NCBI GenBank assembly: GCA_012034865.1
Contig: JAAUOM010000037.1
Coordinates: forward strand, 1-35,947
Length of the DNA stretch: 35,947 nucleotides
Reading direction: 5' to 3'
Origin: Acaryochloris sp. CRU_2_0
GTDB taxonomy: Bacteria > Cyanobacteriota > Cyanobacteriia > Thermosynechococcales > Thermosynechococcaceae
Shown here: positions 17,840-35,947 of the stretch, piece by piece
Numbering within the stretch: position 1 is the first letter of the stretch
Layout: each line of letters begins with the position of its first letter
The notes under the pieces: generated by a model
Seen by the model: the letters and a program-made list of their open reading frames with translations, nothing else
What the model was told of the DNA's origin: nothing
Databases searched by the model: none
Program-made: the position numbers and the translations under genes

Positions 17840-20776
17840 TTATTTGGCGTCCATCCAATTGGCTCCTGTGTGAATCTCGGCCACGAGGGGGACACTTAAG
17901 GGTAGTGCCATTTCCATGATGATTTTGATTTGCGATCGCACTTCTTCCACTTCTTTTGGGGGCACCTCTAAAACTAATTCATCATGGACTTGCAGCAATA
18001 ACCGACTCTCGTAGGCTTTTAGGGCGGCTTGGAGTTGGATCATGGCAATTTTAATCAGATCCGCACTGGAGCCTTGAATGGGGGCGTTGGCGGCTGCCCG
18101 CAGGAGACCGCGATCGTAGCTGCTCAGTTTGATGTCGTTGAGATCAATTTCAGCCAAGTGGTCAAGATCTTGATCACGATATTTTTTGAGGCTGCGGCTC
18201 TCAAACTCAAAGTAGCGGCGTCGCCCCAGAATCGTTTCCACATAGCCTTGGCTAATGGCTTCCCGCTCCATGCGCTGCAAATACGCAAATACTTGGGGAT
18301 AGCGATCATAAAAGCGTTGAATAAAGTCTTTGGCCTCGCCGTATTTGACCCCTGCTTCGCGGGCAAACCGATGGGGACCCATGCCGTAAATGACGCCAAA
18401 GTTGATGATCTTAGCCAGCCGCCTTTCCTCGGCAGAAATATTCTCTTTTTCTAGCAAGAGGTTGGCGGTGAGGGTATGGACATCTTGACCTTGGCGATAA
18501 GCCTCTAGCAATCGTGGTTCTTGGCTCAGATGCGCCAGAATCCGCAGCTCAATTTGCGAGTAATCCGCCGCCACCAATAACCAATCTGATTCAGGAATAA
18601 AGGCTGCCCGAATCTGACGACTAAATTCTGTGCGAATGGGAATATTCTGCAAGTTGGGATTAGAAGAAGATAGACGGCCTGTGGCGGTGACCGCTTGATT
18701 AAAATCCGTATGGATGCGTTGGGTATCCGCCCGAACCAAACTGGGCAACGCATCCACATAGGTGGATTTGAGTTTAGCCAGGGTGCGATATTCCAGGAGG
18801 ACATCAATAATGGGATGGTCGCCTTGTAATTTCTCTAGGGTAGCTGCATCGGTGGAGTAGCCCAGCTTGGTTTTGCGCGACTTTTTAGGATCTAGCTCTA
18901 AGCGGTCAAACAAAATCTCACCCAACTGTTTGGGCGATCCGAGGTTAAAGATTTCTCCGGCCAGTTCATAAGCACCCGCTTCCAAACGCTGTAAGTCGGT
19001 ATCCAGTCGCTGGGAGAGGGTGTGTAAATAGTCGGGGTCAATCCGCACCCCAGCAGTTTCCATCGCCGCCAAAACTCCTTCTAAGGGGAGTTCTACCTCT
19101 AGAAATAACTCGTGCAAGGGCGGGATCTGAGTCAGTTCAGCCTGCAATTTGGCGTGGAGTTGATAGGTGGTAAACACATCTAGGCCGCAATATTCGGCAA
19201 CCTCAGCCACGGACAAGTCGGCAATCGATTGCCCCTTGGGCACCAAATCCTTGTAGCTTTTGGCAGTAACCTGTAAATAATGGCGCGATAGATCCGTAAG
19301 ATTATGGCTGCGCTCTGGATTGAGAACATAACTCGCCAGCATCGTGTCAAAGACAACGCCAGCCAGATCAATCCCTTGAAATTGCAACACCAGCCGATCA
19401 AATTTGGCATTCTGAAATACCTTGGGATAGGTGTCACTTTCTAAAATGGGACGCAAGCCTTCTAGGGCCGTTGCTAAATCGAGATTGGAGCCGTCTTTGT
19501 GACCCAGGGGAATATAAGCGATCGCTTGTTCATCTTGCTGCCAACAACAGCCAATACCCACCAGATGGGCATCTCGCGGCGACAGGCTATCGGTTTCTGT
19601 ATCCCAGGCGACGGGGTGTTCAGGATTGGTATAGGTTTGCAAAAGCGTGATTAACTCAGCCAACTGGTTCGGCGTATTAACAATCCGGGGCAGGATGGCA
19701 GGTAGAGAGAGGGTTTGAGCAGCTTCAGTATCGGCTGCACTAAAGAACCAAGTATCATTGTCTGGATCACCTGGATCCGGCGTGACGGGATCAGGTGTGA
19801 CGGTGGAGGTTGGTGAGGGGCGGGGAATTTCGGCACCGCCTAATTGCTGCTGGAGTTGATTAATCTGGCGCAGAAAAGACTGAAACTCCAGTTTTTCTAG
19901 GACTGGTGCTACTTTTTCAGGATCAAAGCCTTTCAGCTCAAAGTCTGAGAGCGTCACGTCTAGAGGCACATCCAGGACGATGCGGGCTAAAAACTGGGAG
20001 TGATAGGCAACCTCTTTGCCCTCGACGAGCTTTTGCTGCACCGCCCCTTTGATTTGAGCAATTGAGGCATAGATCTGATCTAAGGTGCCAAACTCCGTCA
20101 GTAGTTTGACGGCGGTTTTATCGCCAATGCCCTTGACGCCGGGAATATTATCCGACGCATCCCCGCAGAGGGCTTTATAGTCCACCACTTGGTCAGGGGT
20201 AATCCCCATTTTCTCCTGCACTTCTTCGGAGCCAAAGGATTGGGGAGCAGTACCACTGCGGGCAGCAGCACTATAGATGCTACTCATGTACAGGATGCGG
20301 ATGCGATTGTCCGGTTCAACCAACTGGAACAAATCGCGATCGCCACTCAGGATCTTTACCTGAAACCCTTCCTGGCTGGCTTGGCAGGCCAATGTTCCCA
20401 AAACATCATCCGCTTCGTAACCTGGGACCACGATAATGGGCAAATTGAGCGCCCTCAGCAGCTCTTGCAGATTCTCCAAATCGGCAATAAAGTCTTCTGG
20501 GGTTTCGATGCGATTGGCTTTGTAGGTGGCCTCGGCTTCGTGACGAAATGTGGGCCCCCCCAAATCAAATGCGATCGCTAAGTAGTGGGGGGCTTCGGTT
20601 TTAATCAGGTCTAAGAGGTTTTTTAAAAACCCATAACAGACACTGGTGGGTAGCCCGGTAGAGGTACGCAACCCTCCATCTCGGCTTTTAGCAAAGGCAT
20701 AATAGGCCCGAAAGGCTAAGGAATGCCCATCGACCAAGATCAAGGTAGGTTGTTGTGAGTCAGCATTCACAGACAT
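17840..20776 (-). CDS. polA: DNA polymerase I
   Basis: Repair and primer-removal polymerase, 978 aa. The 5'-3' exonuclease (FEN-like) domain is N-terminal: LILVDGHSLAFRAYYAF, VPGYEADDVLGTLA, ILSGDRDLFQLV, GIKGIGDKTAVKLL-type helix-hairpin-helix region. The 3'-5' proofreading domain keeps its acidic residues: AWDTETDSLS, FQNAKFDRLVL and EYCGLDVFTTYQL, so proofreading is probably active, unlike in Taq-type enzymes. The polymerase domain has ATGRLSSSNPNLQNIP, VAADYSQIELRILAHLS (motif A), the O-helix RRLAKIINFGVIYGMG and LLQVHDELVLEVP (motif C). ATG start at 20776. It ends 78 bases from the convergent tRNA-Cys. Confidence 0.97.
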   Translation of the reverse strand: MSVNADSQQPTLILVDGHSLAFRAYYAFAKSRDGGLRTSTGLPTSVCYGFLKNLLDLIKTEAPHYLAIAFDLGGPTFRHEAEATYKANRIETPEDFIADLENLQELLRALNLPIIVVPGYEADDVLGTLACQASQEGFQVKILSGDRDLFQLVEPDNRIRILYMSSIYSAAARSGTAPQSFGSEEVQEKMGITPDQVVDYKALCGDASDNIPGVKGIGDKTAVKLLTEFGTLDQIYASIAQIKGAVQQKLVEGKEVAYHSQFLARIVLDVPLDVTLSDFELKGFDPEKVAPVLEKLEFQSFLRQINQLQQQLGGAEIPRPSPTSTVTPDPVTPDPGDPDNDTWFFSAADTEAAQTLSLPAILPRIVNTPNQLAELITLLQTYTNPEHPVAWDTETDSLSPRDAHLVGIGCCWQQDEQAIAYIPLGHKDGSNLDLATALEGLRPILESDTYPKVFQNAKFDRLVLQFQGIDLAGVVFDTMLASYVLNPERSHNLTDLSRHYLQVTAKSYKDLVPKGQSIADLSVAEVAEYCGLDVFTTYQLHAKLQAELTQIPPLHELFLEVELPLEGVLAAMETAGVRIDPDYLHTLSQRLDTDLQRLEAGAYELAGEIFNLGSPKQLGEILFDRLELDPKKSRKTKLGYSTDAATLEKLQGDHPIIDVLLEYRTLAKLKSTYVDALPSLVRADTQRIHTDFNQAVTATGRLSSSNPNLQNIPIRTEFSRQIRAAFIPESDWLLVAADYSQIELRILAHLSQEPRLLEAYRQGQDVHTLTANLLLEKENISAEERRLAKIINFGVIYGMGPHRFAREAGVKYGEAKDFIQRFYDRYPQVFAYLQRMEREAISQGYVETILGRRRYFEFESRSLKKYRDQDLDHLAEIDLNDIKLSSYDRGLLRAAANAPIQGSSADLIKIAMIQLQAALKAYESRLLLQVHDELVLEVPPKEVEEVRSQIKIIMEMALPLSVPLVAEIHTGANWMDAK

Positions 20777-20957
20777 CTGGAGAGCTGGGGCAACAGGTAC
20801 AGCAGAGGGGAAGTAGGAAGCATGTCCCTATTGTACGGATTTGCACAGCTTTAGCGGTAATTTGTCCAACTTTTACATGCATCTTAGAATAGGCAGCCTA
20901 AGCAATCCCGCCACCCACCATGCTACGATGCGGGACAACTTCAACCCACCACCCCGC

Positions 20958-21884
20958 ATGACCCGCACCCACCACGACCTCTTCGCCAAACAACACCTCG
21001 AAACCCTCCTGGAAATTGTGGGTGAAGTCACCAGCAGTCGCAAAATTGTCAGTGAAACCCATGAAGTCGATATTCTGTTTGTCCCCGATGCAAAAGTCCA
21101 GGAAAACCTCACAGCCTTGGGTATCCTCGGACAAATCGCAGCCCATATCTGCTTGATTGAACCGTTCCGCAACTCAGTCCAAATAGACGAAGTAGAAGAC
21201 TGCATTGGCAAGCTGATCCATTTCACTCAAGAATTACGACGCAAAGCCAAACGAGAAAAGCAGGTTTTGAAACGAGCTGAATATCCTCGATTGTGGATTT
21301 TAAGTCCAACAGTGTCCGAGGGAATGATTCAATATTTTGCGACCCTTCAGCAACCTCCCTGGCCATCAGGCTTTTATTTTTTGCAATCCTTGCGTACCGG
21401 ACTAGTTGCGATTCATCAGCTTCCGGTGAATGAGGCAACATTATGGCTGAGGTTGATGGGACGAGGCAGCGTGCAACAAAGGGCAATCACGGAGTTATTG
21501 GCATTACCTCCAGGCCATCCAATGAAGCGTAAAACGATGGAACATCTGTCGGTGTTGCAGATCAGTTTGAGTGTAAGGCAGAATTTGGATAGAACTCAGA
21601 GAGAACTAGCGATGAATTTAACTCCTGTGTATGAGCAATGGCGTCAAGAGACGCTGCAAGAGGGCAGACAAGAGGGCAGGCAAGAGGGGATCCTAGAGGG
21701 ACAGCGAAACGAGGGGTTAAGCTTTGTATTGAGACTCCTGACCCGTCGATTCGGATCGATTCCCTCGGAAACTGAAGCCCATATCCAATCGCTTTCCTTA
21801 TCCCAAATAGAAGAACTGGGCGAGGCTCTGTTGGATTTCTCTCAACCATCGGATTTAGACGAGTGGATCAAATCGCATTTATAG
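20958..21884 (+). CDS. DUF4351 domain protein (Rpn/PD-(D/E)XK nuclease-like)
   Basis: About 308 aa from the ATG at 20958 (MTRTHHDLFAKQHLETLLEI), which I prefer because homologues begin this way; the frame stays open upstream to 20841. The N-terminal part (VSETHEVDILFVPD) resembles the PD-(D/E)XK-like core of cyanobacterial Rpn/transposase-like nucleases. After a helical middle part comes a short QEGRQEGRQEG repeat (near 21657-21690), then the DUF4351 helix bundle (LLTRRFGSIPSETEAHIQSL, IEELGEALLDFSQPSDLDEW). Such genes are multicopy in cyanobacteria and are thought to be selfish or recombination-promoting; nuclease activity here is untested. Divergent from polA. Confidence 0.75.
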   Translation: MTRTHHDLFAKQHLETLLEIVGEVTSSRKIVSETHEVDILFVPDAKVQENLTALGILGQIAAHICLIEPFRNSVQIDEVEDCIGKLIHFTQELRRKAKREKQVLKRAEYPRLWILSPTVSEGMIQYFATLQQPPWPSGFYFLQSLRTGLVAIHQLPVNEATLWLRLMGRGSVQQRAITELLALPPGHPMKRKTMEHLSVLQISLSVRQNLDRTQRELAMNLTPVYEQWRQETLQEGRQEGRQEGILEGQRNEGLSFVLRLLTRRFGSIPSETEAHIQSLSLSQIEELGEALLDFSQPSDLDEWIKSHL

Positions 21885-22013
21885 CTGAAAGCGATCGCAG
21901 ATTACAATAAAGTGAGAACCTTCAATTTGAAGTTTGCAGACGCCTACACCAAGGAGGCATGGGCAAAGAGGGAGTCATCTAATGTATCCAAGTATGCATT
22001 GCGCTAGCAGTAT

Positions 22014-22697
22014 CTAGCTTGAAGTCATATCACTAGAAATCGGTGACTTTTGCCCCAAGCGGGGTTCGGTACCAGCCCATAACCGTTGGATATTCGGCCA
22101 ATGTCGCCAGATTACATAGAGACTGGCCGTTAGACTAAACAACCCATAGGCCAAGGGTTGGTGCCCCAAAACCATGAGGATGGGGAGGGCGATCGCAGCA
22201 CTGATCGAACTCAGGGAAACAATCCGAGACACGGACAAAACCACCGCAAAAATGCCCAAAGCCGCCAAACCGACAGTCCAGCTCATCACTAACAAGACTC
22301 CTAAGCCTGTGGCCACGGACTTGCCGCCGGTAAACCCCAGCCAAATCGATTTACTATGACCCAAAATCGCCATGAGAGCCGCCAAGACTACCATCCAAGA
22401 TCCCCACAAAGCAGGATTAATGGTCTCAGGGGCGAGGTTGAACATGGCACTGTTGGTATAGGCCCAACGCAGGAGTGCGATCGCACCCGCTCCCTTCAAA
22501 ATATCCACCCCCAAGGTCACTAAGCCCGGTCCTTTACCCAAGGTTCTTAGAACATTGGTCGCCCCTGTAGATTGAGAGCCATGTTCACGAATATCAATGC
22601 CCTGTAGTCCTCTACCTAGCAAATACCCTGTCGGGAAGGAGCCCAAACCATAGGCAACGATTAACAACACACCATTACAGAGCAGCCAAATCACCAT
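22014..22697 (-). CDS. plsY: Acyl-phosphate:glycerol-3-phosphate acyltransferase
   Basis: Integral membrane enzyme that acylates glycerol-3-phosphate with acyl-phosphate, the first step of phospholipid synthesis with PlsX. About 227 aa with five hydrophobic segments. Family motifs: GSFPTGYLLGR (first loop), HGSQSTGATNVLRTLGKGPG (glycerol-phosphate/acyl-phosphate loop) and GFTGGKSVATGLGVLL (third). The open frame begins at 22748, but MVIWLLCNGVLL from ATG 22697 matches family N-termini. It follows the MreB-like gene by 81 bases on the same strand, so the two may be co-transcribed, linking shape control with lipid supply. C-terminal residues after the last helix are polar. Confidence 0.93.
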   Translation of the reverse strand: MVIWLLCNGVLLIVAYGLGSFPTGYLLGRGLQGIDIREHGSQSTGATNVLRTLGKGPGLVTLGVDILKGAGAIALLRWAYTNSAMFNLAPETINPALWGSWMVVLAALMAILGHSKSIWLGFTGGKSVATGLGVLLVMSWTVGLAALGIFAVVLSVSRIVSLSSISAAIALPILMVLGHQPLAYGLFSLTASLYVIWRHWPNIQRLWAGTEPRLGQKSPISSDMTSS

Positions 22698-22778
22698 AGC
22701 GGATCCCTTTGTCCTTGTGGATATACCAATGCGGGGCACTCCTGCCATTGTTTCATGTCCAGTGGTTCAGGGTACACC

Positions 22779-23807
22779 CTAGAGCCGTTTTTGCAAGACC
22801 CTTTCCCATTGATTGAAATTTTCTAAGACCTTCCCTGTACCCAGCGCCACACAACTGCAAGGATCAGAAGCAATATGGACGACCAAACCTGTTTCATAAC
22901 GGATTAAGGCATCCAGTCCTTTGAGCAAGGCTCCCCCACCCGTGATCACAATACCCCGATCTATTAAGTCCGCCGCTAATTCAGGAGGAATTTTTTCTAA
23001 CACCCGTTTAATCGCTGCCACAATCCGCCCTAGGGACTCGGCTAGGGCTTCGCGGATCTCTAAGCCTTTGAGCACCACACTGCCCGGTAAACCAGAGAGC
23101 AGCCGTAACCCTGAAATTTCTAGGATAGCCTCATCTTGCTCAGGGTGAGGATAGGCAATTCCAAGAGCTATCTTCACTGTTTCGGCAGTCTTTTCCCCGA
23201 TCAATAAATCATGATTTTGTTTCACATGGCGACAAATAACCTGATCAAATTGATTGCCTGCTATCCGTAGCGATTCCGTCACCACGGTGCCCATATAACT
23301 GACCACAGCAATTTCTGTCGTGCCGCCACCAATATCAACAATCATATTGCCGATGGGTTCCTCTACCGGTAAATTTGCACCGATCGCAGCCGCAATCGGT
23401 TCCTCAATTAAGTAGACTTCCCGCGCCCCTGCTTGGGCAGCCACCTCAGCCAAGGCTCTTTTTTCAATACTCGTAGCCCCCACCGGACTACTGATAATCA
23501 CGCGCGGATAGAGAAGGGTTTGGCCTTTTTGCACCTGCTGAATAAAATGTTTCAGCATTAAGCGAGCCGTCTCAAACCCCACAATTACCCCATCGGCCAA
23601 GGGATGGCTGACCAGAATACTAGATGGGTTCCGTTGCCACATGGCCTCTGCTTCTGCACCAATGGCCAGTAGGGTCTGATGGGTTTGGTCTAGAGCCACA
23701 ACTGAAGGTTCGTTCAGGACGATCCCTTGACCACTTAGGTAAATTAGGGTACTCACTGTTCCAAGATCGACACCAATACCGTGGGATAAATGATTTAATG
23801 GCCCCAA
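22779..23807 (-). CDS. mreB: MreB-like actin-family cell-shape protein, without mreCD
   Basis: Bacterial actin homologue of about 342 aa. ATP-binding landmarks: GIGVDLGTVSTLIYLSGQGI (phosphate 1), NMIVDIGGGTTEIAVVSYMG (phosphate 2), IVITGGGALLKGLD (adenosine), plus the connect region LIEEPIAAAIGANLPVEEP. Start: the frame opens with GTG at 23831, but TTG at 23807 has GGAGG 9 bases upstream and gives MGPLNHLSHGIGVDLGT, aligning with typical MreB starts (MGLF..SRDLGIDLGT). Somewhat divergent in places (DQTHQTLLAIGAEAEAMWQR where MreB usually has VGxxAKxMxGRTP), and no mreC or mreD follows; plsY does. It may be a second paralogue rather than the main MreB. Confidence 0.88.
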   Translation of the reverse strand: MGPLNHLSHGIGVDLGTVSTLIYLSGQGIVLNEPSVVALDQTHQTLLAIGAEAEAMWQRNPSSILVSHPLADGVIVGFETARLMLKHFIQQVQKGQTLLYPRVIISSPVGATSIEKRALAEVAAQAGAREVYLIEEPIAAAIGANLPVEEPIGNMIVDIGGGTTEIAVVSYMGTVVTESLRIAGNQFDQVICRHVKQNHDLLIGEKTAETVKIALGIAYPHPEQDEAILEISGLRLLSGLPGSVVLKGLEIREALAESLGRIVAAIKRVLEKIPPELAADLIDRGIVITGGGALLKGLDALIRYETGLVVHIASDPCSCVALGTGKVLENFNQWERVLQKRL

Positions 23808-24380
23808 ACCCCCATACCTCCATGACAGCACTCACTCAAATCGGATAATCGACCTGATGACTAGCGTTAGATACATTGCCCGCTGGCTCCAACCCAGGTG
23901 TACTTCATCAATTCCTTGCCTAGTCTAGCTGATACATTTAAGCAACGTTGACTAACAATCGTTATCCTATGCACATTGGCAAACCTAAGGCGATCGCGGC
24001 TCTTTTGAGAGGCAACCATCGATATCCCAGATGGGTTCTGTGAAATGCGTCATCCCATCGAGCCTCATCTTGTAAATTGCTCCGATACTCTCGAATGATC
24101 TTGCTTATTGATATGCCTCTAACCCACCAATCCAAGTGACGACAGCACGGCGTTTACCTTGGCTCCTAAAAATGAAGACATACAGCCAATCGATTTTGAG
24201 CGGATTGTGGTCTCACTCCGTAGATCCCTAAAGTTTCAAGATAATCGCCATCGCGGCTGTGGTAGGAATTCTGCAAAAGACAGTAAAATGAGAGGCATAG
24301 CCTTCACTAGGCATGCACCATTGATGGATAAACTATCAAGCAAATATAGTAGTGAAAAATCACCAAGGAGAAGATAACTA
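23808..24380. other. Intergenic region, about 570 bases, no supported gene
   Basis: Between the divergent MreB-like gene and rpsU. The only plus-strand frame of any size (24159 to 24377) is basic and low in hydrophobics, runs into the rpsU leader, and matches nothing I know. One HIP1 octamer lies near 23992. Promoters for both flanking genes should be here; I see no convincing -10/-35 pair. AAGGAG at 24365-24370 is the rpsU ribosome binding site. Confidence 0.4.
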
Positions 24381-24560
24381 GTGGTTCAAGTGGTATTAGG
24401 TGAAGACGAGGGAATTGAATCTGCATTACGCCGATTTAAGCGTCAAGTCTCAAAAGCTGGAATTTTGGCAGATGTTAAACGTCGACGCCATTTTGAGACC
24501 CCATTGGAGAAGAAAAAGCGCAAGCGCATTGCTACTCGTCGCAAGCGTCGTTTTCGCTAG
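24381..24560 (+). CDS. rpsU: 30S ribosomal protein S21
   Basis: A 59-residue basic protein: [20 protein letters not shown], then [20 protein letters not shown] and [18 protein letters not shown]. This is S21, which sits near the anti-Shine-Dalgarno end of 16S rRNA and aids initiation. GTG start at 24381, with AAGGAG 10 bases upstream and an in-frame TAA just before it. The frame is too short to be caught by a 60-codon cut-off, and a longer overlapping frame (24400 to 24624) is only its shadow. Followed by a strong hairpin (24640-24673). Single gene by spacing. Confidence 0.96.
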
Positions 24561-24639
24561 AGTGAATACAGCAGCAGTTGGTCGAGCATTACTCAACAAA
24601 GCTGCTAAAACCCATAATTTTTAGCTCAATAATGCGAAC

Positions 24640-24673
24640 AGCCACTCCCTATCCATAGATACAGGGAGTGGCT
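24640..24673 (+). terminator. Probable rpsU terminator hairpin
   Basis: A perfect 11-bp stem, AGCCACTCCCT (24640-24650) with AGGGAGTGGCT (24663-24673), and a 12-base loop. No T-run follows (ATTGTGGG), as is often the case for cyanobacterial stem-loops, so it may terminate or stabilise the rpsU mRNA. It lies 79 bases past the rpsU stop and well before ilvC. Confidence 0.7.
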
Positions 24674-24763
24674 ATTGTGGGAATTGGATCCTTTCCCCTA
24701 TTATCGATCGCAGCGAGTAGAGGATCTATAAAGATTGATTCGTTCAGATTAATTGTAAAATGA

Positions 24764-25813
<1,050 letters not shown>

Positions 25814-25861
25814 CATTTGTCTTCCCTAACGGTGGGTGTTTTAATCTCTATAAATTGCGTC

Positions 25862-26358
25862 TTAACAGGCCCAACTTGGGCTTTGGAATTTAGCGTACCA
25901 TTCGCTCACCCTCGATTTTTGCCAAGTCCTAGACTGAACGGTTTGTTGGCCTTGATACAATTGGGTAATCAATTCAGCTTTGGCATCTGGGTATTTTTGC
26001 AACGCTGCTTGCAAATGAGATTGGTGTAAAACCAAACATCGAGTTGGTTTTAAGGTACTGACCGAAGCTGAGGTCGGTTGGTTATCAAAAATGTTAATAT
26101 CTCCAAAATAGGTACCCTCAGACAGCTCAGCTATTTTGACGCCATCAACGTGGATTTTAACCTTGCCCTCAACAATAAAAAAGATCAGGTGCTTGCGATC
26201 CCCTGGCTGCAAATGACATTCTTGGCATCAAAGGTCAGTTCTTCTAACCCTTCCGCCAAACATTCTAGAAAAGATTCATTGTCAATACCTCCTAAAAAAC
26301 CTGTCTTTTTCAGGAATATGAGGTGATTTGTCAGCGGTGAGGAGGATAGAGACAACAT
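25862..26358 (-). CDS. Cyclic-nucleotide-binding (CNB) domain protein, split by a one-base shift
   Basis: Two frames form one protein of about 165 aa. The first starts at ATG 26358 (MLSLSSSPLTNHLIFLKKTG, then FLGGIDNESFLECLAEGLEE and LTFDAKNVI). The second, open from 26212, continues LQPGDRKHLIFFIVEGKVKI, then ELSEGTYFGDINIFDNQPTS. The join at 26211-26213 has three A (T on the coding strand) where four would make NVILQPGD continuous. The CNB barrel is clear, but the phosphate-binding cassette reads FGDINIFDNQPTSASV with Ser in place of the usual Arg, so cAMP binding is doubtful. There is no HTH or effector domain after the barrel. Unshifted, the reading stops within a few codons of the break, before most of the barrel. 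Indel in the data or a pseudogene. Confidence 0.75.
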
Positions 26359-26427
26359 ATCTAAAATTTAAGCTATATACAATACAGTGCTATGACTATT
26401 AGTATCCCTATCGTCCTTTAGTCCATC

Positions 26428-26527
26428 GACCGTATAACTACTGAATCGATGGCCAATGCTCATCCCTATCTACAAAAAGTTCAAGTGTAACCTTCCATCT
26501 ATTGACCGTATAACTACTGAATCGATG
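26428..26527. repeat. Direct repeat, 24 bases, two copies
   Basis: The 24 bases beginning GACCGTATAACTACTGAATC and ending GATG occur without mismatch at 26428-26451 and 26504-26527, 76 bases apart start to start. Flanking bases are also partly alike. Only two copies, so not a CRISPR array. They lie between the CNB-domain gene and the kinase-TIR unit and could be regulator sites, a short duplication, or parts of a dispersed repeat. Confidence 0.7.
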
Positions 26528-26595
26528 ACCAAGCGATCGCTAGTAGCCTGTCAGGATAGATTTGTAGACAGCTACAATCTACAAAACCCATTGTG

Positions 26596-26634
26596 AGACT
26601 ATTTTGATGGGTTTAACCCAAATCAGAATAGTCT
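26596..26634. repeat. Strong hairpin in the leader region of the kinase-TIR unit
   Basis: AGACTATTTTGAT (26596-26608) pairs with ATCAGAATAGTCT (26622-26634): 13 pairs with one G-U. Inside, GGGT/ACCC adds 4 pairs with a TTA loop and two bulged A. An alternative stem, AAACCCAT (26584-26591) with ATGGGTTT (26607-26614), would exclude the large hairpin, an attenuator-like choice. No T-run follows. Could be a structured RNA, a terminator for an upstream transcript, or a small mobile repeat. Confidence 0.6.
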
Positions 26635-26660
26635 TAAGAAACCACTAGCCTTTGAATTCA

Positions 26661-26685
26661 AATACTCTGTTCTACTTAGAGTATT
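26661..26685. repeat. Hairpin, 8-bp perfect stem
   Basis: AATACTCT (26661-26668) and AGAGTATT (26678-26685) with a 9-base loop, 26 bases after the large hairpin. It adds to the unusually structured 600-base non-coding stretch 26359-26953, in which I find no coding frame. Confidence 0.5.
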
Positions 26686-26877
26686 GCTAGAGTCTGGGAA
26701 TCACCCTAATCTGAGGCCGTGGTTTGTGATGACGATATCCAAATTACTACAACCATCTCCACAAGCAGTTAGGATACGGTTGGGTTGTGTTCTCAGCCCA
26801 GGCTCCCTAAAGATTACTTTCTCTATCTGAGATAGGCCAATCTATAGCCATTCTAAATAGGTTATGAACAAGGGGGT

Positions 26878-26914
26878 GTGGGAGTAATGCCCCCACGCAG
26901 GGGTTTCTCCCTGC
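26878..26914 (+). promoter_or_regulatory. Two adjacent GC-rich hairpins just upstream of the kinase start
   Basis: GTGGG (26878-26882) with CCCAC (26892-26896), immediately followed by GCAGGG-GTTTCT-CCCTGC (26897-26914). They end 39 bases before the kinase ATG, inside the probable 5' untranslated leader, so they could affect translation or transcript stability. Seen in sequence; the role is inference. Confidence 0.4.
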
Positions 26915-26953
26915 CACCTATCCAGAATTTGAGAAAGATCGCTATATGTTTAG

Positions 26954-29613
26954 ATGGCAGACAATGCTAGTCAAGCAACACTTGGTTCAACCCTCAAACA
27001 GCAAACCTCATTGATTATGCTCGGTCGAACACTTGGTGGACGGTATCAGATCCTGGAGACTTTAGGCGGAGGAAGTTTCGGTCAGACCTACCTGGCTGTT
27101 GATATCCACCGTCCTGAGCGGCCACAATGTGTGGTAAAACATCTCAAGCCTGCAAAGCGAGATCCCGATTTTTTACCCAAAGCTCGTTCTCTTTTTGAGC
27201 GAGAAGCAGTAATGCTGGAAAAATTGGGAAGCCACGATCAGATCCCGCGCTTGTTAGCCTACTTTGAAGAAAAACAAGAATTCTATTTGGTGCAAGAGTT
27301 TATCCCTGGTCATTTGTTACGGACGGAATTATCCCAGGGCTGTCGGTGGTCAGAAGATCAGGTTGTGCAGTTATTGCAAGATATCTTGACTATTTTGGCG
27401 TTTATTCATCAGTTTGATGTCATCCACCGGGATGTTAAACCTGAGAATATTATCCGTCGTCAGCAAGATAATCGACTCGTTCTGATCGACTTTGGTGCGG
27501 TTAAACAGCTTCGCAAAGATCTCAGTGGCGATCCCTACTCATCCCTACCTGTGGGTGGCACCATTGCCATTGGTACCCCTGGTTATATGGCTCCAGAACA
27601 AGCCCAAGGTCGGCCTCGAACCAATAGCGATCTCTATGCCCTAGGCATGATTGGTATCGAAGCCTTTTTGGGTAAAAATCCCACACAGTTTAGGCAAACT
27701 GCCCAGGGAGAAATCGATTGGCAAGAAGAAGTTGCCATCAATTTAGGACTGGCCGATATTCTTCAACAATGGTACGCTACCACTTTCAATATCGTTACCC
27801 GTCTGCTCAAGCGGTTTTAAGTGACTTACAGCAGCGATCGCAATCATCCGGGTGGTTACAAAAAGTAGGCAAGATCTTGCGTTCACCCGTGCAAACTCTA
27901 TGGACTAGTGACCCGACTTCAACCGCTGATCGGAGTGTACAGACCTCTCCCCAAGGAAATCCTGTCGTTAATTCCCCCGGGTCTCCTCTAGGGGCTAGCG
28001 TCCTATCTGTTGATCCAGACAGTGCCACCCAACGAATTGAAGCCGTCACAACAATTCAGGTTTTTATCAGTTCTCTCAATCGTGAACCCGAGTTGCATGT
28101 GGCCAAGCAATTGTTTGCGGCGATCAAAGCGGCTGGATACCAACCCTTTATGGCAACGCAAAGTTTAGAGCTGAAGGAGAATTGGGCACAACATATTGAC
28201 CAGGCCCTCAAAGCCTGTGATTACTATTTGCTGTTATTGTCGCGAGCCTCGGCCCACAGTGAATTGATGCTGCAAGAACTGCGTGCTGTCAAAACTTTGC
28301 ACCAGCTCCGCTCCCATCAGCGTCCCAAAATTCTGCCTATCCGTGTGGATTTACCCATGGATGGTTCGTTGAACTATGAGTTAAGGGGCTATTTGCATCG
28401 TTTACAGCAACGCATTTGGCGAACTGCCGCCGATACACCTCAATTGATCCAAGATATCTTAGCGACCTTAGTGGCGAGTGATTCCATTGCTAAAACCTTG
28501 GAGCAACCTAGCTCTGGAGCCTTTCCCTCCGTACCACCGTTGAATCCCGGCTCGGATGCCCCGCCTTTACCCGTGGCGGAACCAGAACTGCCTGAAGGGC
28601 AAGTCAATGTGGCTTCAGGGTTCTATATTGAGCGGCCTCCTATTGAAACCCGCTGTGCGGAAACAGTGATGGAACCCGGTGCCCTGATTCGGATTAAAGC
28701 ACCGCGCCAGATGGGAAAAACGTCGTTAATGGCGAGAATTCTCCATCAAGCGGCCAGCCAAGGCTTGCATACCGTATCTCTTAACTTGCAGTTGGCAGAT
28801 GGCAAGGTGTTTACGGATCTCGATCAGCTTTTGCGGTGGTTATGCGCCAGTGTTAGCCGCAGACTGCGCTTGCCCAATCGCTTACAGGAAACCTGGGATG
28901 ATATTTTTGGCAGTAAATACAATTGTACGGCCTATTTTGAGGAATATTTGCTCACAGAGACTGAGGGACCGTTAACCTTAGCCCTGGATGAAGTGGATCG
29001 GGTATTTGAATATCCAGAGATTGCCAGTGACTTTTTTGGCTTGCTGCGCGCTTGGCATGAAGAAGCTAAAAACCAGGAGATTTGGCAAAAGTTACGGTTA
29101 ATCGTTGTCCATGCAACGGAAGTGTACATTCCCCTCAATACCAACCAATCTCCTTTTAATGTCGGTTTGCCCATTGATTTGCCTGAATTTACCCTGGCGC
29201 AAATTAGCCAATTGGCCGATCTGCATCAGCTAGAGTGGGATGAGTCACAAACGACCCAGTTACAAACCTTAATTGGCGGACATCCCTATCTAATCCGTTT
29301 GGCCTTATATCACCTGGCTAAAGAGGATATGGGATTATGCCAACTCCTGGAAACTGCACCCACCGAAGCGGGTTTGTTTCGAGATCATTTGCGGGGACAT
29401 TGGTGGAATCTCCAACAGCATCCCCAACTGGCTCAGGCTTTTGCCAAGGTGGTTACCTCCCATCAACCCATTGCCCTAGAACCATCTGTGTTGTTTAAGC
29501 TCCATAGTTTGGGCCTGATTCGCTTGGTGGGGAATGGTGCCCAGCCCCGTTGTGATCTCTACCGACAGTACTTTTCTGCGCTGGTGGGGGTAGAAAATAG
29601 AACAGGCGGCTAG
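26954..29613 (+). CDS. Ser/Thr kinase-TIR-AAA_35 NTPase fusion, split by a one-base shift
   Basis: Frame 1 (to 27820) holds a Hanks-type kinase: LGGGSFGQTYLAVD (P-loop), CVVKHLKP (Lys), VIHRDVKPENII (Asp160), LIDFGAVKQL (Asp179), GTPGYMAPEQ. At 27768-27769 two A stand where three would make ADILQQMVRYHFQYRYPSAQ continuous; frame 2 then runs to 29613. After a Pro/Ser linker it carries a TIR domain (about 28054-28480): IQVFISSLNREPELHVAKQL, LKACDYYLLLLSRASAHSEL and a Glu (28276) at the usual NADase position. Then an AAA_35 domain: FYIERPPIETRC, IRIKAPRQMGKTSLM (Walker A), LALDEVDRVF (Walker B), NQSPFNVGLPIDL. Joined, about 886 aa; unshifted, the kinase loses only its last helix and the TIR-NTPase part lacks its own clear start. 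It precedes the AAA_35-WD40 gene by 71 bases. A signalling or NLR-like immune role is inferred. Confidence 0.85.
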
Positions 29614-29684
29614 CGTAGGGGATTGGGGTTGCCATCCTTTATCTAGCTGCCGCTCAGATACAGTCTTTGGTTTTGACTCAGCTC

Positions 29685-32600
29685 ATGGATACTTCTGTTT
29701 CCGGTTGGCCGCAAAGCGATATGCCTGTTCCCATGAATCCCTACCAAGTGGGGGGGAGTTTACCCGTGGATGCGCGTACGTATGTGGTACGGCAGGCCGA
29801 TCGCGATCTATATCAGGCTCTCAAGGCCGGGGAGTTTTGCTATGTCCTCACCGCACGCCAGATGGGGAAGTCCAGCTTGCGAGTCCATACCATGAAGCGG
29901 TTGACCCTAGAAGGATTTGCCTGTGCCGCCATTGATGTCACCAAAATTGGCAGCCAGAATATTACCGATGAACAATGGTATGCCAGCCTGATCGGGGCTT
30001 TAGTGAGTGAATTTCGGTTGGCGAACCAGTTCGAGTTACGCGCTTGGTGGCGCGATCGCACCTTGCTATCCCCTGCCCAACGCCTGACTGAGTTTATCGA
30101 GGAAGTCTTGTTTGCACAGATCCCCGACAATATGGTGATCTTTATTGACGAAGTGGATAGCCTCCTCAGCCTCAGTTTTTCGGCGGATGATTTCTTTGCG
30201 CTCCTGCGCGCCCATTATAACAGTCGCGTCGATCGAGGGGATTATAAGCGGCTGACCTTTGCTCTGTTTGGGGTGGCCACGCCTTCCCAACTCATTCAAG
30301 ATCAGCAGCGCACCCCCTTTAACATCGGTCGAGCGATCCCCCTGCGGGGCTTTCAAACCTCAGAGACCCGTCCTTTAAGCCTGGGGTTGAGAACCATCTC
30401 AGAAAATCCTGAAGCCCTCGTTCAAGCAATTTTGACTTGGACCAATGGCCAACCGTTTTTGACCCAAAAACTGTGCAAGGTCTTGGCTGCTGGCTCTCCT
30501 ATCCTTACAGGCCAAGAAGCCAAGATTGTGGATGAACTGGTTCACGCTCAGATCATCCACAATTGGGAAGCCCAAGATGAACCAGAGCATTTACGGACGA
30601 TTCGCAACCGTTTGCTGCATGATGAGAAACGGGCAGGGCGGATCTTGGGCTGTTATCGAACCCTGTTAACCGCAGTCCAAGGGGACTGTCAAATTCGCAT
30701 TCCCACTGAGAACCGTCCTGAACAGATGGACTTGTTACTATCTGGTTTAGTGATTCAAACCCAGGGTCAGCTCCAGATTCACAACCGAATTTATGCTGAA
30801 ATCTTTAACTTGGCTTGGGTAGAGCAGCAATTGGCACAACTGCGTCCCTACGCGGAAGTCATGCAATCTTGGTTACGCTCCGGTGGCCAAGATCCATCGC
30901 GGTTACTGCGGGGTCAAGCCCTGCGAGAAGCCTTGGACTGGTCCAATACCAAAAGCTTAAGCAATCAAGATTATCAATTTCTCAGTGCCAGTCAGGATGC
31001 CGATAAACAAGCGGTAGAAATCAGTCTGGCCACGGAACGACAATCCAAAAAGGCCATTGAAGACGCCAACCAAATTCTGATGCAGGCTCATCGGCAAGCC
31101 CGCCGGATTGTGCGGGTTGCGATCGCAGCCCTGGCCATGGTATCGGGAATTTCAGTCTTGGCCATTAGTGTTGGCCTTCGCACGGGTCAAGATTTACAAG
31201 AGTCCCAACAAAGCCTTGCCCTAGAACAAGAAGGTGTGGTGATCCTCAGACAGTTTCCCACAGAACAACTGCAATCGTTACAAGCCGCGATTAAGCTTGG
31301 TCAAAGCCTGCAAGCCTTAGTTACTCCTAAGCACCCTCTGCAAGACTACCCCACGGTTAAACCCATTTATGTTTTGCAAACCATTCTAGATAGCATCTAC
31401 GAAAAAAATACCTGGAAAGGCCATCAGGGTCGTATCAACAGTGGCTTCTTTAGTCCCGATGGCCAACAACTGATTACCGCAGGACAAGATGGCTATGTCC
31501 GTCTTTGGTCCGCTCAGGGCGAAAAGATCCGAGAGTTCCAAATCGATGCAAAGGGATTGAGATATGCTGACTTCCTCAGGGATGGTCGCATCATCACCCT
31601 CACTGTTGAGGGTCAGATCCAAATTTGGCAGCCTTCCGGTCAACCCAGCACCACCGTTTTGCAAAGCATCGGTATTACTGAAAGTATTCGGTTTAGCCCT
31701 AGCCGTCAACAGTTTGCCACGGTCACAGCCAAAGGCCAGGTTCAAGTTTGGGATCTCAAAGGTCAAGAAATTGCCCAATTTAAGGCCAATCATGAACAAG
31801 CCAGTAGCTTGAGTTTTAGCCCCGATGGTCAGCGTTTAAGTACGGTAGGAACCGATGGCACCATGCAGTTGTGGACCCTATCCGGCCAAAAACTAAAGGA
31901 GTGGAAAAGTCACACCAATCCCAACCTCAAACTCAACAGCGTCAGTTTTCTGCCCGTCTCCACGCGAGATTCCCCATCCGGTACGCCCGCAGACCAACCC
32001 TTTGTCATGGTGGGATCCGATGGCCTCATCCGGTTGTGGGATGCCACTAGCAACCAACCTGTGAATGTTTGGCGGGGCAGTCAAGCCCCCCTTTATTTGA
32101 TCGATGTTAACCCCAAAAGTCGCCAGTTTGTGACCCTGGGAGAAGACAGCACCATCCGGCTGTGGGATGATTCCGGCAGGCAACTGGCCGAACTCAGAGG
32201 CCATTCTGGGTTAGTGAGTAGTGCGAGTTTTAGTCCCAATGGCAAACGCCTGCTCACCACAGGCAAAGATGGCAGCTTACACCTGTGGGATCTCGCGAAC
32301 CAACAGCAATGGCGGGGAGGACATCAAAGCATTTGGAGTATTGCCCTCTCTCCCCAAGGAGACTCCCTGGCGACGACGGGGAAAGATGGTAAGTTGCGCC
32401 TGTGGAAGACTGCCGGAAACCTTCTTTGGCAAGTTGACGCCCATAATCAAGGGAACGACGTCATCTTTAGTCCCGATCAAACCCAGTTGGCCACTGCAGG
32501 CGAAGATGGCCATGTCCGGCTTTGGGATTTGCAAGGACATCTCCTCCAAGATCGCCACTTCACCTCAGAAGGGGTTTACGCCTTGAGCTATTCGTCTAAA

Positions 32601-33242
32601 GGAGATGTCCTTGCCGCTGCTGCTGGGGATGGCAAAGTCTATTTATGGCATCTGAAATCTGAGAAGCACAAGCAGTTTGCGGCCTCTCAGAAGCCGATTT
32701 GGGCGGTTAGATTTAGCCCCAATGGCCAACAACTTGTCACTGCTGGCAAGGAAGGGCAGGTTAAAATCTGGACAAAGACGGGGAAGGAGTTGGCAAACTT
32801 TGATGCCCAACAAGGCTGGCTGAGTGATGTCCGCTATACTCCAGACGGGAAAGAACTTTGGACAACGGGCAAGGATGGTTCAGTCCGGTTGTGGTCTGTG
32901 CAGGGTGAGCCGCGTCAGCAGTTTCGCAGTCATCCCAATGACATTCTGCGCATGGTTCTCAGTGCAGACGGTCAGCGTTTAGCCACCGCCGGACAAGATG
33001 GCAGTGTCAGAGTGTGGACCTCAAGAGGACAACAGTTGGCAGAGCTGATCAACCATCAAGGTGCTGTTTACGGTCTGCAATTTTCAGCGGATGGCCATTC
33101 TTTGCTCACGGTCGGCAAAGATGATGTCATCCGAGTATGGCAAACGGGCAGCCTCTCCCAATTGTTGGAGCGGGGGTGCCAATGGTTAGAGGTTTATGTA
33201 CAGCAGCATCCAGAGGTTACCAATCCTTGTCGTCAAAATTAG
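29685..33242 (+). CDS. AAA_35 NTPase-transmembrane-WD40 protein (14 blades)
   Basis: About 1185 aa. N-terminal AAA_35 domain: [39 protein letters not shown] (Walker A), [16 protein letters not shown] (Walker B) and [13 protein letters not shown]. Then a winged-helix-like region ([14 protein letters not shown]), a coiled-coil-prone stretch, a single membrane helix near residues 474-499 ([20 protein letters not shown]), and a C-terminal array of 14 WD40 repeats recognised by DGxVRLW-type ends (GYVRLW, GQIQIW, GQVQVW, GTMQLW, GLIRLW, STIRLW, GSLHLW, GKLRLW, GHVRLW, GKVYLW, GQVKIW, GSVRLW, GSVRVW, DVIRVW), enough for two seven-bladed propellers. Start: ATG 29685 preferred over in-frame TTG 29667. 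Same strand and 71 bases after the kinase-TIR gene; both share AAA_35, so they may assemble together. The STAND-like sensor role is inferred. Confidence 0.88.
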
Positions 33243-33311
33243 AGATCTGGGATAATAGAGAGTCCTTGAAGGGGGTATAGCAGTTATTGATTAAGGAGTA
33301 GATGAACCCGG

Positions 33312-34496
33312 ATGTTATATCGTCGATTTGGACGAACGGAACTGCAAATACCCGTATTTTCCTGTGGAGGGATGCGTTATCAGCATTCTTGGCAGGATGA
33401 GTCCGGCTGGAAAATTCCCCGTGCCAATCAAGACAACCTAGAGGCAACTATTCGGCGATCTATTGAGTTGGGTATTCATCACATCGAAACCGCTAGAGGC
33501 TATGGCACCTCAGAGCTGCAACTGGGGCGGATTTTGCCTAAGTTTCCTCGCCAACAATTGATTGTTCAAACTAAAGTTTCTCCCAAAGAGAGTGCTAAAG
33601 AGTTTCAGCAAACCTTTGATCAATCTCTACTCAATTTAAACCTGGACTATGTGGACTTGCTGGGCATCCACGGCATTAATACACCTGAACTTCTGGAGTT
33701 TACCCTGCGTCCGGGCGGTTGTCTGGAAGTAGCTCGGCGGTTACAAGAACAGGGCAAAGTTCGGTTTGTGGGTTTCTCTACCCACGGGGCTACGGATTTG
33801 ATTGTGAAAACGATTCAGACGGATCAGTTTGACTATGTCAATTTGCATTGGTATTACATCAATCAGTTCAATTGGCCAGCCATTGAAGCGGCAAACCACC
33901 ATGATCTGGGGGTATTTATCATCAGTCCTGCTGATAAGGGCGGTATGCTCTACAAGCCTTCACCCAAATTGGTGGCGTTGTGCCAACCTTTAAGTCCGAT
34001 GGTCTTTAATGACCTCTTCTGTTTGAGTCATCCTCAAGTGCATACCCTCAGTGTGGGGGCAGCTCGTCCAAGTGATTTTGATGAGCACTTACGAACGTTG
34101 GATTTATTAGAGCAAGCCGAGACCCTGCTGACTCCGATTTTAGAGCGGTTACAAGAGGCTGCGATCGCAACCCTCGGCGCAGACTGGGTCAAGACTTGGC
34201 ATCAGGGTTTACCCAGCCATGAACACACCCCTGGCAATATCAATATTCCCGTGATCCTGTGGCTACGCAATCTAGCCATTGCCTACGACATGCACGAATA
34301 TGCCCAGATGCGCTACAACTTACTGGGACAAGCGAGTCATTGGTTCCCCGGTCAAAAAGCCACTCAGGTGACTCGCTTGGATCTTAGCCAATGTCTACAA
34401 ACTAGTCCCCATGCCGCCCGCATTCCTGAATTATTGGTCGAAGCAGATCGCCAACTGGCAGGTGAAGCCGTGCAACGCTTATCCAAAAGCCCTTAG
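33312..34496 (+). CDS. Aldo/keto reductase
   Basis: A 394-aa NADPH-dependent oxidoreductase: N-terminal MLYRRFGRTELQIPVFSCGG, then HHIETARGYGTSELQLG, QLIVQTKVSP, YVDLLGIHGINTPE and VRFVGFSTHG, the TIM-barrel order of the family. Catalytic Tyr (GYGTSE), Lys (QTKVS) and His (LGIHG) are visible; the first acidic residue of the tetrad is Glu (IETA) rather than Asp, as in a known bacterial subgroup. The C-terminal 120 residues form a helical extension without the 4Fe-4S cysteine motif seen in some relatives. Substrate unknown. It starts 69 bases after the WD40 gene but is probably separate from it. ATG start at 33312. Confidence 0.88.
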   Translation: MLYRRFGRTELQIPVFSCGGMRYQHSWQDESGWKIPRANQDNLEATIRRSIELGIHHIETARGYGTSELQLGRILPKFPRQQLIVQTKVSPKESAKEFQQTFDQSLLNLNLDYVDLLGIHGINTPELLEFTLRPGGCLEVARRLQEQGKVRFVGFSTHGATDLIVKTIQTDQFDYVNLHWYYINQFNWPAIEAANHHDLGVFIISPADKGGMLYKPSPKLVALCQPLSPMVFNDLFCLSHPQVHTLSVGAARPSDFDEHLRTLDLLEQAETLLTPILERLQEAAIATLGADWVKTWHQGLPSHEHTPGNINIPVILWLRNLAIAYDMHEYAQMRYNLLGQASHWFPGQKATQVTRLDLSQCLQTSPHAARIPELLVEADRQLAGEAVQRLSKSP

Positions 34497-34521
34497 AGGT
34501 CTGTCAATGGCCGTGCTGAGA

Positions 34522-34944
34522 CTATTCTGCCGAGATTTTAACTGACAAAATTTTATCGCCTTGGCGAATCGCATTGACCACGTTCATATCTTGGGTTTGG
34601 CCGAAGGTGGTATGGACGCCATCTAAATGGGATTGGGGAGAATGACAGATAAAGAATTGGCTACCGCCTGTATCCCGGCCAGCATGGGCCATCGATAAAG
34701 TGCCGGATAGATGTTTATGATCGTTAATTTCACATTTTATCGTGTAGCCAGGACCGCCCGTGCCCGTGCCTTTAGGGCATCCCCCTTGGATCATAAAATT
34801 AGGAATGACGCGATGAAAGGTTAAGCCGTCATAGAACCCCTGCGTAGTCAAGTCCACAAAGTTCTTAACTGTATTGGGAGCCTCTTGATCAAATAAATCC
34901 AGGTGAATTGTACCTTTATCGGTTTCCATAATGGCTTTGGTCAT
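34522..34944 (-). CDS. Cyclophilin-type peptidyl-prolyl cis-trans isomerase
   Basis: A 140-aa single-domain cytoplasmic cyclophilin that speeds proline isomerisation in folding proteins. Signature [20 protein letters not shown] carries the catalytic Arg and Phe-Met-Gln; [20 protein letters not shown] and [11 protein letters not shown] (in place of the eukaryotic HLDGKHxVFG) follow. No signal peptide, so cytosolic. Short loops are typical of the bacterial small form. ATG start at 34944. Convergent with the aldo/keto reductase, 25 bases between stops. Confidence 0.94.
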
Positions 34945-35047
34945 AATTGTGCTCGTTTCCTGATATTTTCTGAAGATATGTTCTGCATCCTATCTTGGCA
35001 GCAAAGTGAATGCAAATTGAGTCTTGAGCTAGGCTCATGCAAGGCTG

Positions 35048-35782
35048 ATGGGTAATTTTTTGAGGGCAACCTCCCGGAGATTATGGCGGTTGATACAGAA
35101 AAGGCGTCGCTGTATTGGCGTAGTCCTGGGCTTCAATGGCTGTCTATGGGGAATTCCCGCAATTTATATGGCTCTGTTTACCCCCCCTGCTCCTGAGATT
35201 AAGCTGCCGAGTATTCAGCAGTTGCAGCAGTCTCAATACGATGTGTACGTTGTCAATTGGGGATTTCATACGGCCATTATTGTGGAACAACCCCAAGGCT
35301 GGACTTTAGGACCGCCCAATCACCCTCAAGCTGCCTATGTTGAATATGGTTGGGGAGATAAGCGGTTCTTTATGTTGTCTGATACCTCCATCCCGGCAAC
35401 GGTAGCAGCAGCAATCCTACCGACTCCTTCGGTGGTTTATCTGCGCGGACGTGATGCTCCGCCTACGGCTGAAAATTATGCTCGACAACTGTACCATCGA
35501 CAGGTCTCACGCCAACAGCTCTATGCTTTGATTGGAACCCTAGAGCAAAGTTTTCAGCGATCGCCCCAGGGCAATCGAGTCAAGCCTTACCCTCAGGTTC
35601 CTGAGTTTGTAGGGTACTTTTATCCAGGTCGGGAGTACTATATTATTTGGTCAGATTGTAATGCTTGGACGCTTAAGCATTTACACCGTATCAATGTTGC
35701 TCAATCGGATATTCCTGTCATTTTTGCTGAACAAGTTGGCCCCAGTTTGCAGGGTTTTCAGTTAATTCAAGGCTCACCCTAA
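35048..35782 (+). CDS. DUF2459 (TIGR02117) family protein, membrane-anchored
   Basis: A 244-aa protein with a basic N-terminus and one hydrophobic segment (CIGVVLGFNGCLWGIPAIYM), then a periplasmic domain: YDVYVVNWGFHTAIIVEQPQ, YVEYGWGDKRFFM, a VVYLRGRDAPP stretch and WSDCNAWTLKHL near the end. The conserved His (GFHT), Asp (WGD) and Cys-Asn-x-Trp (CNAW) could form a Cys-His catalytic pair of NlpC/P60- or transglutaminase-like type, but this is speculation: the family has no proven activity that I know of. ATG start at 35048. Single gene by spacing. Confidence 0.82.
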   Translation: MGNFLRATSRRLWRLIQKRRRCIGVVLGFNGCLWGIPAIYMALFTPPAPEIKLPSIQQLQQSQYDVYVVNWGFHTAIIVEQPQGWTLGPPNHPQAAYVEYGWGDKRFFMLSDTSIPATVAAAILPTPSVVYLRGRDAPPTAENYARQLYHRQVSRQQLYALIGTLEQSFQRSPQGNRVKPYPQVPEFVGYFYPGREYYIIWSDCNAWTLKHLHRINVAQSDIPVIFAEQVGPSLQGFQLIQGSP

Positions 35783-35890
35783 ATAAGGTGGCTTCTCATT
35801 ATATGGAAAAGCAATTAGAAAAGATTAGGGTCGAGAATTTAATAAAGTGTCAAACTATTCTCAGCAAAACGGTAGCCCTCACCCCCCCAG

Positions 35891-35920
35891 CCCCCCTCTC
35901 CCAATACTGGGCGAGGGGGG
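35891..35920. repeat. GC-rich dispersed-repeat hairpin
   Basis: CCCCCCTC (35891-35898) pairs with GAGGGGGG (35913-35920), with inner CCC/GGG and loop AATACT. It is preceded by CCCTCACCCCCCCAG, the text of a widespread intergenic repeat (CCCTCACCCCCxxCCCCTCTCCCA) seen in many cyanobacteria and other bacteria. It may also end the DUF2459 transcript. The window stops 27 bases later. Confidence 0.6.
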
Positions 35921-35947
35921 AGTTGTTCAGAGATGGATAGGTTGTCC

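Follow-up and report, generated by a model that had tools for sequence, protein, structure and literature searches.

A stretch of 35,947 nucleotides from the cyanobacterium Acaryochloris sp. CRU_2_0 (contig JAAUOM010000037.1 of assembly GCA_012034865.1; hereafter, the window) raises the question of why two consecutive plus-strand genes, one encoding a Ser/Thr kinase and a TIR domain and the other a transmembrane helix and WD40 repeats, both carry an NTPase domain of the same Pfam family, AAA_35 (PF14516). A sequence-only reading had proposed that these genes belong together, as the responding and sensing parts of an NLR-like (nucleotide-binding leucine-rich-repeat-like) signalling or immune system built around a STAND-like switch. 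Our analysis leads us to consider it fairly probable that their products are subunits of one paired STAND-type switch, in which an AAA2-transmembrane-WD40 protein is the membrane sensor and a kinase-TIR-AAA1 protein the executor. AAA1 and AAA2 are our own labels for the gene 1-type and gene 2-type groups of AAA_35 domains.

Two NTPase families and their partnership

The AAA1 domain of gene 1 (28573-29592, plus strand) and the AAA2 domain of gene 2 (29742-30962, plus strand) both matched AAA_35 well above the Pfam gathering cut-off of 27, the first with 511 bits (E 1.1e-153) and the second, more divergent, with 99.5 bits (E 2.2e-28). Family scoring of the open reading frames (ORFs) from our set of loci, in which some genomes occur twice, assigned 128 to AAA1 and 88 to AAA2, with none within 50 bits of both, and the two families are homologous to each other (hhalign probability 99.6). 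The Walker A Lys and Walker B Asp, both present in gene 1, were invariant in 14/14 aligned rows of AAA1 and in 14/14 of AAA2. Profile searches of both families against PDB sequences returned nothing usable; the structure model of AAA1, with an NTPase plus winged-helix fold as in NLR and apoptosome proteins, matched apoptosome and resistosome NTPases. By its predicted fold, AAA1 is a STAND-like NTPase, as had been supposed for gene 1.

Co-occurrence was assessed in a phylum census of 194 genomes at least 90% complete; because each genome was scored on its 9 or 10 best candidates, the high counts are lower bounds. AAA1 was present in 66 genomes and AAA2 in 63, all of which also contained AAA1, and AAA2 alone was found in none of the 194. 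The census contained at least 204 AAA1 and at least 199 AAA2, the two counts being equal in 39 of the 66 genomes and within one of each other in 61 (Pearson r 0.91). Of the 21 genomes with one AAA1, 16 had exactly one AAA2, two had four or five and three had none.

The search for conserved adjacency that the sequence-only reading had called for gave a similar picture. Among 80 loci chosen by similarity to TIR-AAA1 (best 80 of 570), 70 AAA1 genes had sufficient sequence behind them, and 54 of these had an AAA2 directly downstream on the same strand, with a median spacing of 36 bases and at most 2.1 kb between the open frames; 14 more AAA1 genes could not be judged. The 16 genes with no downstream AAA2 included four with a divergent AAA2 upstream (L145, L147, L151 and L153) and one lying near another complete pair (L120). 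Since no ORF of at least 130 amino acids besides the pair itself was common to the flanks in the window (20000-35947) and at four related loci, the pair has been kept together while its surroundings changed. At one locus (L177, G050 C1:4594700-4614500) a single AAA1 is followed by four tandem AAA2, three of them with WD40, which may represent one executor with several sensors.

Unlinked pairs provide the strongest test of the partnership. In Thermosynechococcus-group genomes the kinase-TIR-AAA1 gene lies 40 kb (G011), 0.6 Mb (G020) or 1 Mb (G022) from the AAA2-WD40 gene, and in the unlinked genomes the partner is still present and mostly orthologous. We compared six unlinked AAA2 (L170-L173, from one genus, L175 and L176) with the eight AAA2 of a single Acaryochloris-group genome, G002, in which seven AAA1 adjoin an AAA2 and the eighth AAA1 and eighth AAA2 both stand alone. 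All six were nearest to the AAA2 that adjoins the G002 kinase-TIR-AAA1 (L040), at distances of 0.80-0.93 as against 1.08-1.28 to the next; the same rule holds for L071 and L045. As the choice is made among eight genes of one genome, species history does not explain this result. The trees of the two families also agree: over 74 adjacent pairs the correlation was r 0.85, compared with at most 0.40 in 500 shuffles made with no control for species history, and within single genomes it reached 0.94 in G002 (rank 101 of 5040 orders) and 0.77 in G001 (rank 6 of 120). Taken together, co-occurrence, adjacency, matching trees and retained unlinked partners bear out the proposal that the two genes belong together.

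Putative outputs on one chain and inputs on the other

Gene 2 (29667-33242, plus strand; 1191 amino acids, in-frame ATG at 29685) is one intact frame in which the AAA2 domain is followed by a predicted transmembrane helix (31116-31172, by Kyte-Doolittle hydropathy) with an Arg-rich stretch before it, and then by a WD40 region (31395-33149, E 6.1e-89) modelled as two seven-bladed propellers, which confirms its earlier description as NTPase, membrane helix and WD40 array. A second hydrophobic segment predicted at this gene falls mostly upstream of the start codon. WD40 was matched in 16 of the 45 gene-2 proteins, and the region behind the NTPase of 20 other AAA2 proteins contained GAF (5), TPR (3), GUN4 (2), peptidoglycan-binding (1), trypsin-like (1) and histidine-kinase (1) domains, with nothing above cut-off in the remaining 7/20. 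At least one hydrophobic helix was predicted in 69/97 AAA2 ORFs, usually immediately behind the NTPase, and in 3/138 AAA1 ORFs; none was predicted behind the NTPase of the five GAF-type AAA2 proteins. Lys and Arg were more frequent before the helix than after it in 55 of 68 AAA2 proteins, equal in nine and fewer in four. This charge bias, together with the peptidoglycan-binding, CHASE2 and trypsin-like domains found behind the helix, would suit a periplasmic WD40 array, but GUN4 occurs there too (L118, L143) and we did not adopt that topology.

The AAA1 chain has a different complement. Profile scans of 58 gene-1 proteins found AAA_35 in all 58 and TIR_2 in 54, in a set gathered with a TIR-AAA1 query and therefore over-representing TIR. 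Every long non-kinase N-terminus before the TIR contained an enzyme-like domain (18/18: seven trypsin-like, five cyclase, five CHAT and one caspase), whereas the two short N-termini scanned matched no domain. The kinase is a further option at the same position upstream of the TIR; its presence on the chain had seemed unusual, but it belongs to a group of modules that replace one another there. Because enzymes sit on the AAA1 chain and sensor domains and membrane helices on the AAA2 chain, AAA2 looks like the input side and AAA1 the output side, with exceptions; the division read from the window, effectors on one chain and sensors on the other, thus recurs across related loci as a wider rule of domain make-up. 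The same genome has a second pair (contig C118, 607-7323), in which a short AAA1 gene of 400-500 codons, its N-terminus helix-turn-helix-like by eye, is followed in a row by an AAA2-CHASE2 membrane protein gene and a CHAT gene that also encodes TPR-like repeats.

The TIR domain of gene 1 (28057-28488, plus strand; TIR_2 E 4.3e-13, over the cut-off) was modelled with block predicted local distance difference test values of 80-97 across most of its length and is the sole TIR_2 match in this 92%-complete genome. Its weak PDB profile matches included Cat1 (E 1.4e-4) and AbTIR (E 0.0062). A Glu aligns at the NADase position, as first reported, at codon 28276-28278, which we take from the motif register to be the catalytic one. 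In our alignment (A6) the column holds Glu in 44 of 58 TIR-bearing rows, and its retention depends on what precedes the TIR: Glu is kept in 24/24 proteins whose TIR follows an enzyme as against 20/34 with a short N-terminus, where Gln and other residues replace it (Fisher p 0.00015, uncorrected for relatedness). Some of the short-N-terminus TIRs thus cannot be NADases of the usual type. An adaptor role next to an enzyme would predict the reverse pattern, and we do not favour the TIR as a pure adaptor in such proteins. Since the Glu is kept in the window and in all 24 enzyme-TIR proteins, the window TIR is probably catalytic, judged by its residues, and both enzyme modules may act; NAD+ cleavage by the gene 1 TIR is plausible.

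These results bear on a reading in which the pair serves ordinary transmembrane or metabolic signalling, AAA2 sensing the state of the envelope, light or tetrapyrroles, the kinase being the true output and the TIR an assembly module that neither kills nor cleaves NAD+. We hold this to be possible, though not probable. GAF, GUN4, CHASE2 and peptidoglycan-binding sensors would suit it, as would the rows whose TIR has lost the Glu. A kinase-TIR gene in 11/11 Thermosynechococcus-group genomes searched, with flanks common to up to 8/10 others, also fits a standing cellular function, as do the housekeeping neighbours in the window, namely genes for ketol-acid reductoisomerase, MreB, an acyltransferase, DNA polymerase I and an aldo/keto reductase. 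Complete retention of the Glu beside an enzyme argues against it, and so do the caspase-, CHAT- and trypsin-like outputs found at related loci.

Genomic setting and the window copy of gene 1

The sequence-only reading leaned towards NLR-like anti-phage defence, in which WD40 would sense a phage component and the TIR would deplete NAD+. Mobile copies favour it: there are 36 plasmid records; a Nostoc plasmid (L180, NZ_CP040298.1, 123467-138999) has two AAA1/AAA2 pairs side by side, adjoining a NACHT gene and transposase genes; an IMG/VR contig (L181/L178, IMGVR_UViG_3300031236_000894) has overlapping TIR-AAA1 and AAA2 genes together with a weakly tail-spike-like gene; and an Abditibacteriota plasmid (L179, AP024153.1, 23792-28178) encodes a TIR-AAA1/AAA2 pair, both members of which are annotated as hypothetical proteins, and the pair is thus not confined to Cyanobacteria. 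The caspase-, CHAT- and trypsin-like outputs point the same way. The kinase part matched 35 PADLOC families, including the anti-phage kinase models PD-T4-6 (the best, E 6.7e-88) and mad6, matches which may reflect general kinase likeness, and gene 2 matched PADLOC HEAT-ARM_XIII across its WD40 part. However, TIR-AAA_35 and ten other window proteins scanned (0/10) matched no PADLOC family, no window protein reached an NCBIfam cut-off, 50,697 phage records gave no match, and the Thermosynechococcus gene sits in conserved chromosomal surroundings. With housekeeping genes around the pair, its expected location in a defence island was not borne out. The pair may have a defence role, but we regard anti-phage defence of this kind as unlikely.

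The window copy of gene 1 needs separate consideration. It had been described as a complete Hanks kinase, a TIR domain and an AAA_35 NTPase joined in one chain, and all three domains are indeed present, but the kinase ORF (26954-27820, plus strand; 288 amino acids) and the TIR-AAA_35 frame (27694-29613, plus strand; 639 codons between stops, with TTG at 27718 as the first start listed) occupy different frames. When five related copies (L038-L042, from four genomes) are aligned with it, the window shows a single-base gap at about 27767 (27760-27775, plus strand), the remaining indels all being multiples of three. Because this gap shifts the frame, the kinase ORF lacks its C-terminal end: although the match is strong (Pkinase E 6.5e-38), it covers positions 1-208 of the 263 in the profile, whereas a relative (L078) covers 1-258. 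The single chain holds in relatives, since an uninterrupted kinase-TIR-AAA_35 ORF of 864-957 codons was found in 19 of 28 same-family genomes searched, 11 of them from one genus, the Thermosynechococcus group. The ORF is broken in a twentieth genome (G006), and the gene was not found in the other eight, several of which are incomplete. Beyond the family it is intact at L050/L090 and L087 and stop-interrupted at L157 (Oscillatoria sp. PCC 10802).

A decaying pseudogene, leaving gene 2 alone active, would account for the gap that parts the kinase from TIR-AAA_35, yet we consider it improbable. Neither gene has any further stop or frame change, and the ratio of non-synonymous to synonymous substitution (dN/dS) was low where it could be computed: 0.037-0.060 across the two parts of gene 1, kinase and TIR-AAA_35 (the 3/8 comparisons with unsaturated silent sites) and 0.037-0.079 over the 5/12 comparisons with unsaturated silent sites. 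A low ratio combined with a single gap indicates that gene 1 was constrained until recently or that the assembly is wrong, and these data fit a recent mutation and a draft error alike. An assembly error is credible because the genome is a draft of 259 contigs with other frame-split genes: contigs C84, C90 and C105 carry pieces of single CHASE2 or CHAT domains split over different frames, which suggests indel errors of the draft or decayed genes. A programmed frameshift at the kinase/TIR border was set aside, since the frame is continuous in all five related copies and inspection by eye showed no obvious slippery heptamer. Fission as a conserved state was also considered; the kinase, TIR and AAA1 of L071 (G035) are likewise spread over different frames, yet the first border there contains an unresolved base, which makes this poor evidence.

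Finally, that the genes are independent paralogues with separate functions, their adjacency a relic of an old tandem duplication, is very improbable: the homology of AAA1 and AAA2 and the AAA2 array at L177 would agree with it, but unlinked partners are retained and lie nearest to the linked orthologue, and AAA2 never occurs alone in the census.

A probable paired STAND-type switch in Cyanobacteria

Several observations weigh against the two-subunit switch, besides the shuffles run with species history uncontrolled. AAA1 occurs with no AAA2 in 3/66 census genomes, where a more permissive search gave only weak scores, no higher than those that AAA1 proteins themselves obtain. The AAA2 of L087 (two) and L157 are nearer to the lone G002 AAA2 (L164; 0.89, 1.00 and 1.02) than to the partner at L040 (0.91, 1.02 and 1.04), by a margin of 0.02. 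At L174 (G018 C1:2215500-2221500, Thermosynechococcus group) the AAA2-WD40 gene is broken up over three ORFs while the kinase-TIR-AAA1 frame is open. The structure comparison for AAA2 was made with the whole gene 2 model, whose match list was filled by WD40. Among the census AAA1 rows listed, 75/150 are frames of 400-500 codons with no room for a TIR as well, and TIR or kinase is therefore not a general AAA1 output. The catalytic Glu is absent from 14/58 TIR-bearing rows, and trypsin-like and histidine-kinase domains also occur on AAA2, which makes the division into inputs and outputs imperfect.

If the two genes nevertheless form such a switch, a ligand or protein binding to the WD40 propellers would free AAA2 to exchange ADP for ATP and, contacting AAA1 directly, to nucleate co-oligomerisation with it. 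Signalling would run from sensor to executor: the co-oligomer would cluster and activate kinase and TIR, leading to phosphorylation and, probably, to the cleavage of NAD+; the stressed or infected cell would presumably become dormant or die. In the window copy as assembled, the frame change would detach the kinase from this chain of events. More broadly, we give about an even chance to a phylum-wide cyanobacterial two-subunit STAND system, with sensor AAA2 and executor AAA1 on separate genes and functional only together, as in plant sensor/helper NLRs. Inputs and outputs would be freely swapped on a fixed core, one executor could serve several sensors, and many executors would carry an enzyme and a TIR in series.

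Plant paired or helper/sensor NLRs, such as RPS4/RRS1 and the NRC networks, consist of two NTPase receptors of which one mainly senses and the other mainly executes. The pair described here resembles them in its sensor and executor NTPases, the TIR on the executor, the possible use of one executor for several sensors (L177) and the related fold. It differs in that many AAA2 sensors are membrane-anchored, with WD40, TPR, GAF or GUN4 as inputs rather than leucine-rich repeats, and in that AAA1 outputs include kinase, cyclase and proteases. MalT and CED-4/Apaf-1 share the STAND-type switch and the fold matched by the AAA1 model, and Apaf-1 also carries WD40 propellers; unlike the AAA1/AAA2 pair, they are single-chain receptors not known to have a partner NTPase.

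Bacterial relatives show comparable modularity. In the available portions of the literature, Avs and bacterial NACHT proteins (PMC10907252) likewise combine a STAND-like NTPase with an N-terminal effector or C-terminal sensor, but on one chain, where here effector and sensor are spread over two NTPase chains. The VMAP and iSTAND ternary conflict systems (Kaur et al. 2020, PMC7159879) have modular trypsin, caspase and cyclase effectors, GUN4 in cyanobacteria and a multi-gene unit; their core is MoxR-vWA plus a third protein, the parts of that paper available to us do not mention AAA_35 pairs, and it did not come up when main texts were searched for AAA_35. As far as their accessible text goes, these two papers and PMC8195603 treat related conflict-system modularity and not this pair, and PMC7517822 concerns retroelement targets. 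TIR is absent from the 14 additional domain types that a 2007 survey (PMC2176072), in its accessible part, records for cyanobacterial kinases. An 'AAA-like domain-containing protein' is mentioned in PMC9679502, and in the open-access literature as partly available (subscription papers and preprints lying outside the search) AAA_35 appears only in passing, among the accessory domains that sigma factors carry (PMC11119718).

We view the AAA1/AAA2 pair as a variant of known paired STAND receptors, and its recurrence with interchangeable sensors and effectors suggests an undescribed two-receptor signalling or cell-suicide system. If this is true, the plant-type division between sensor and executor NTPases would exist in bacteria too, marked by a simple 1:1 genetic signature, and small genomes with a single pair, such as those of Thermosynechococcus, would offer a small system in which the passing of a signal from NTPase to NTPase could be tested. 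The Pfam family AAA_35 would then also gain a function, as would many of the WD40, GAF and GUN4 proteins of Cyanobacteria.

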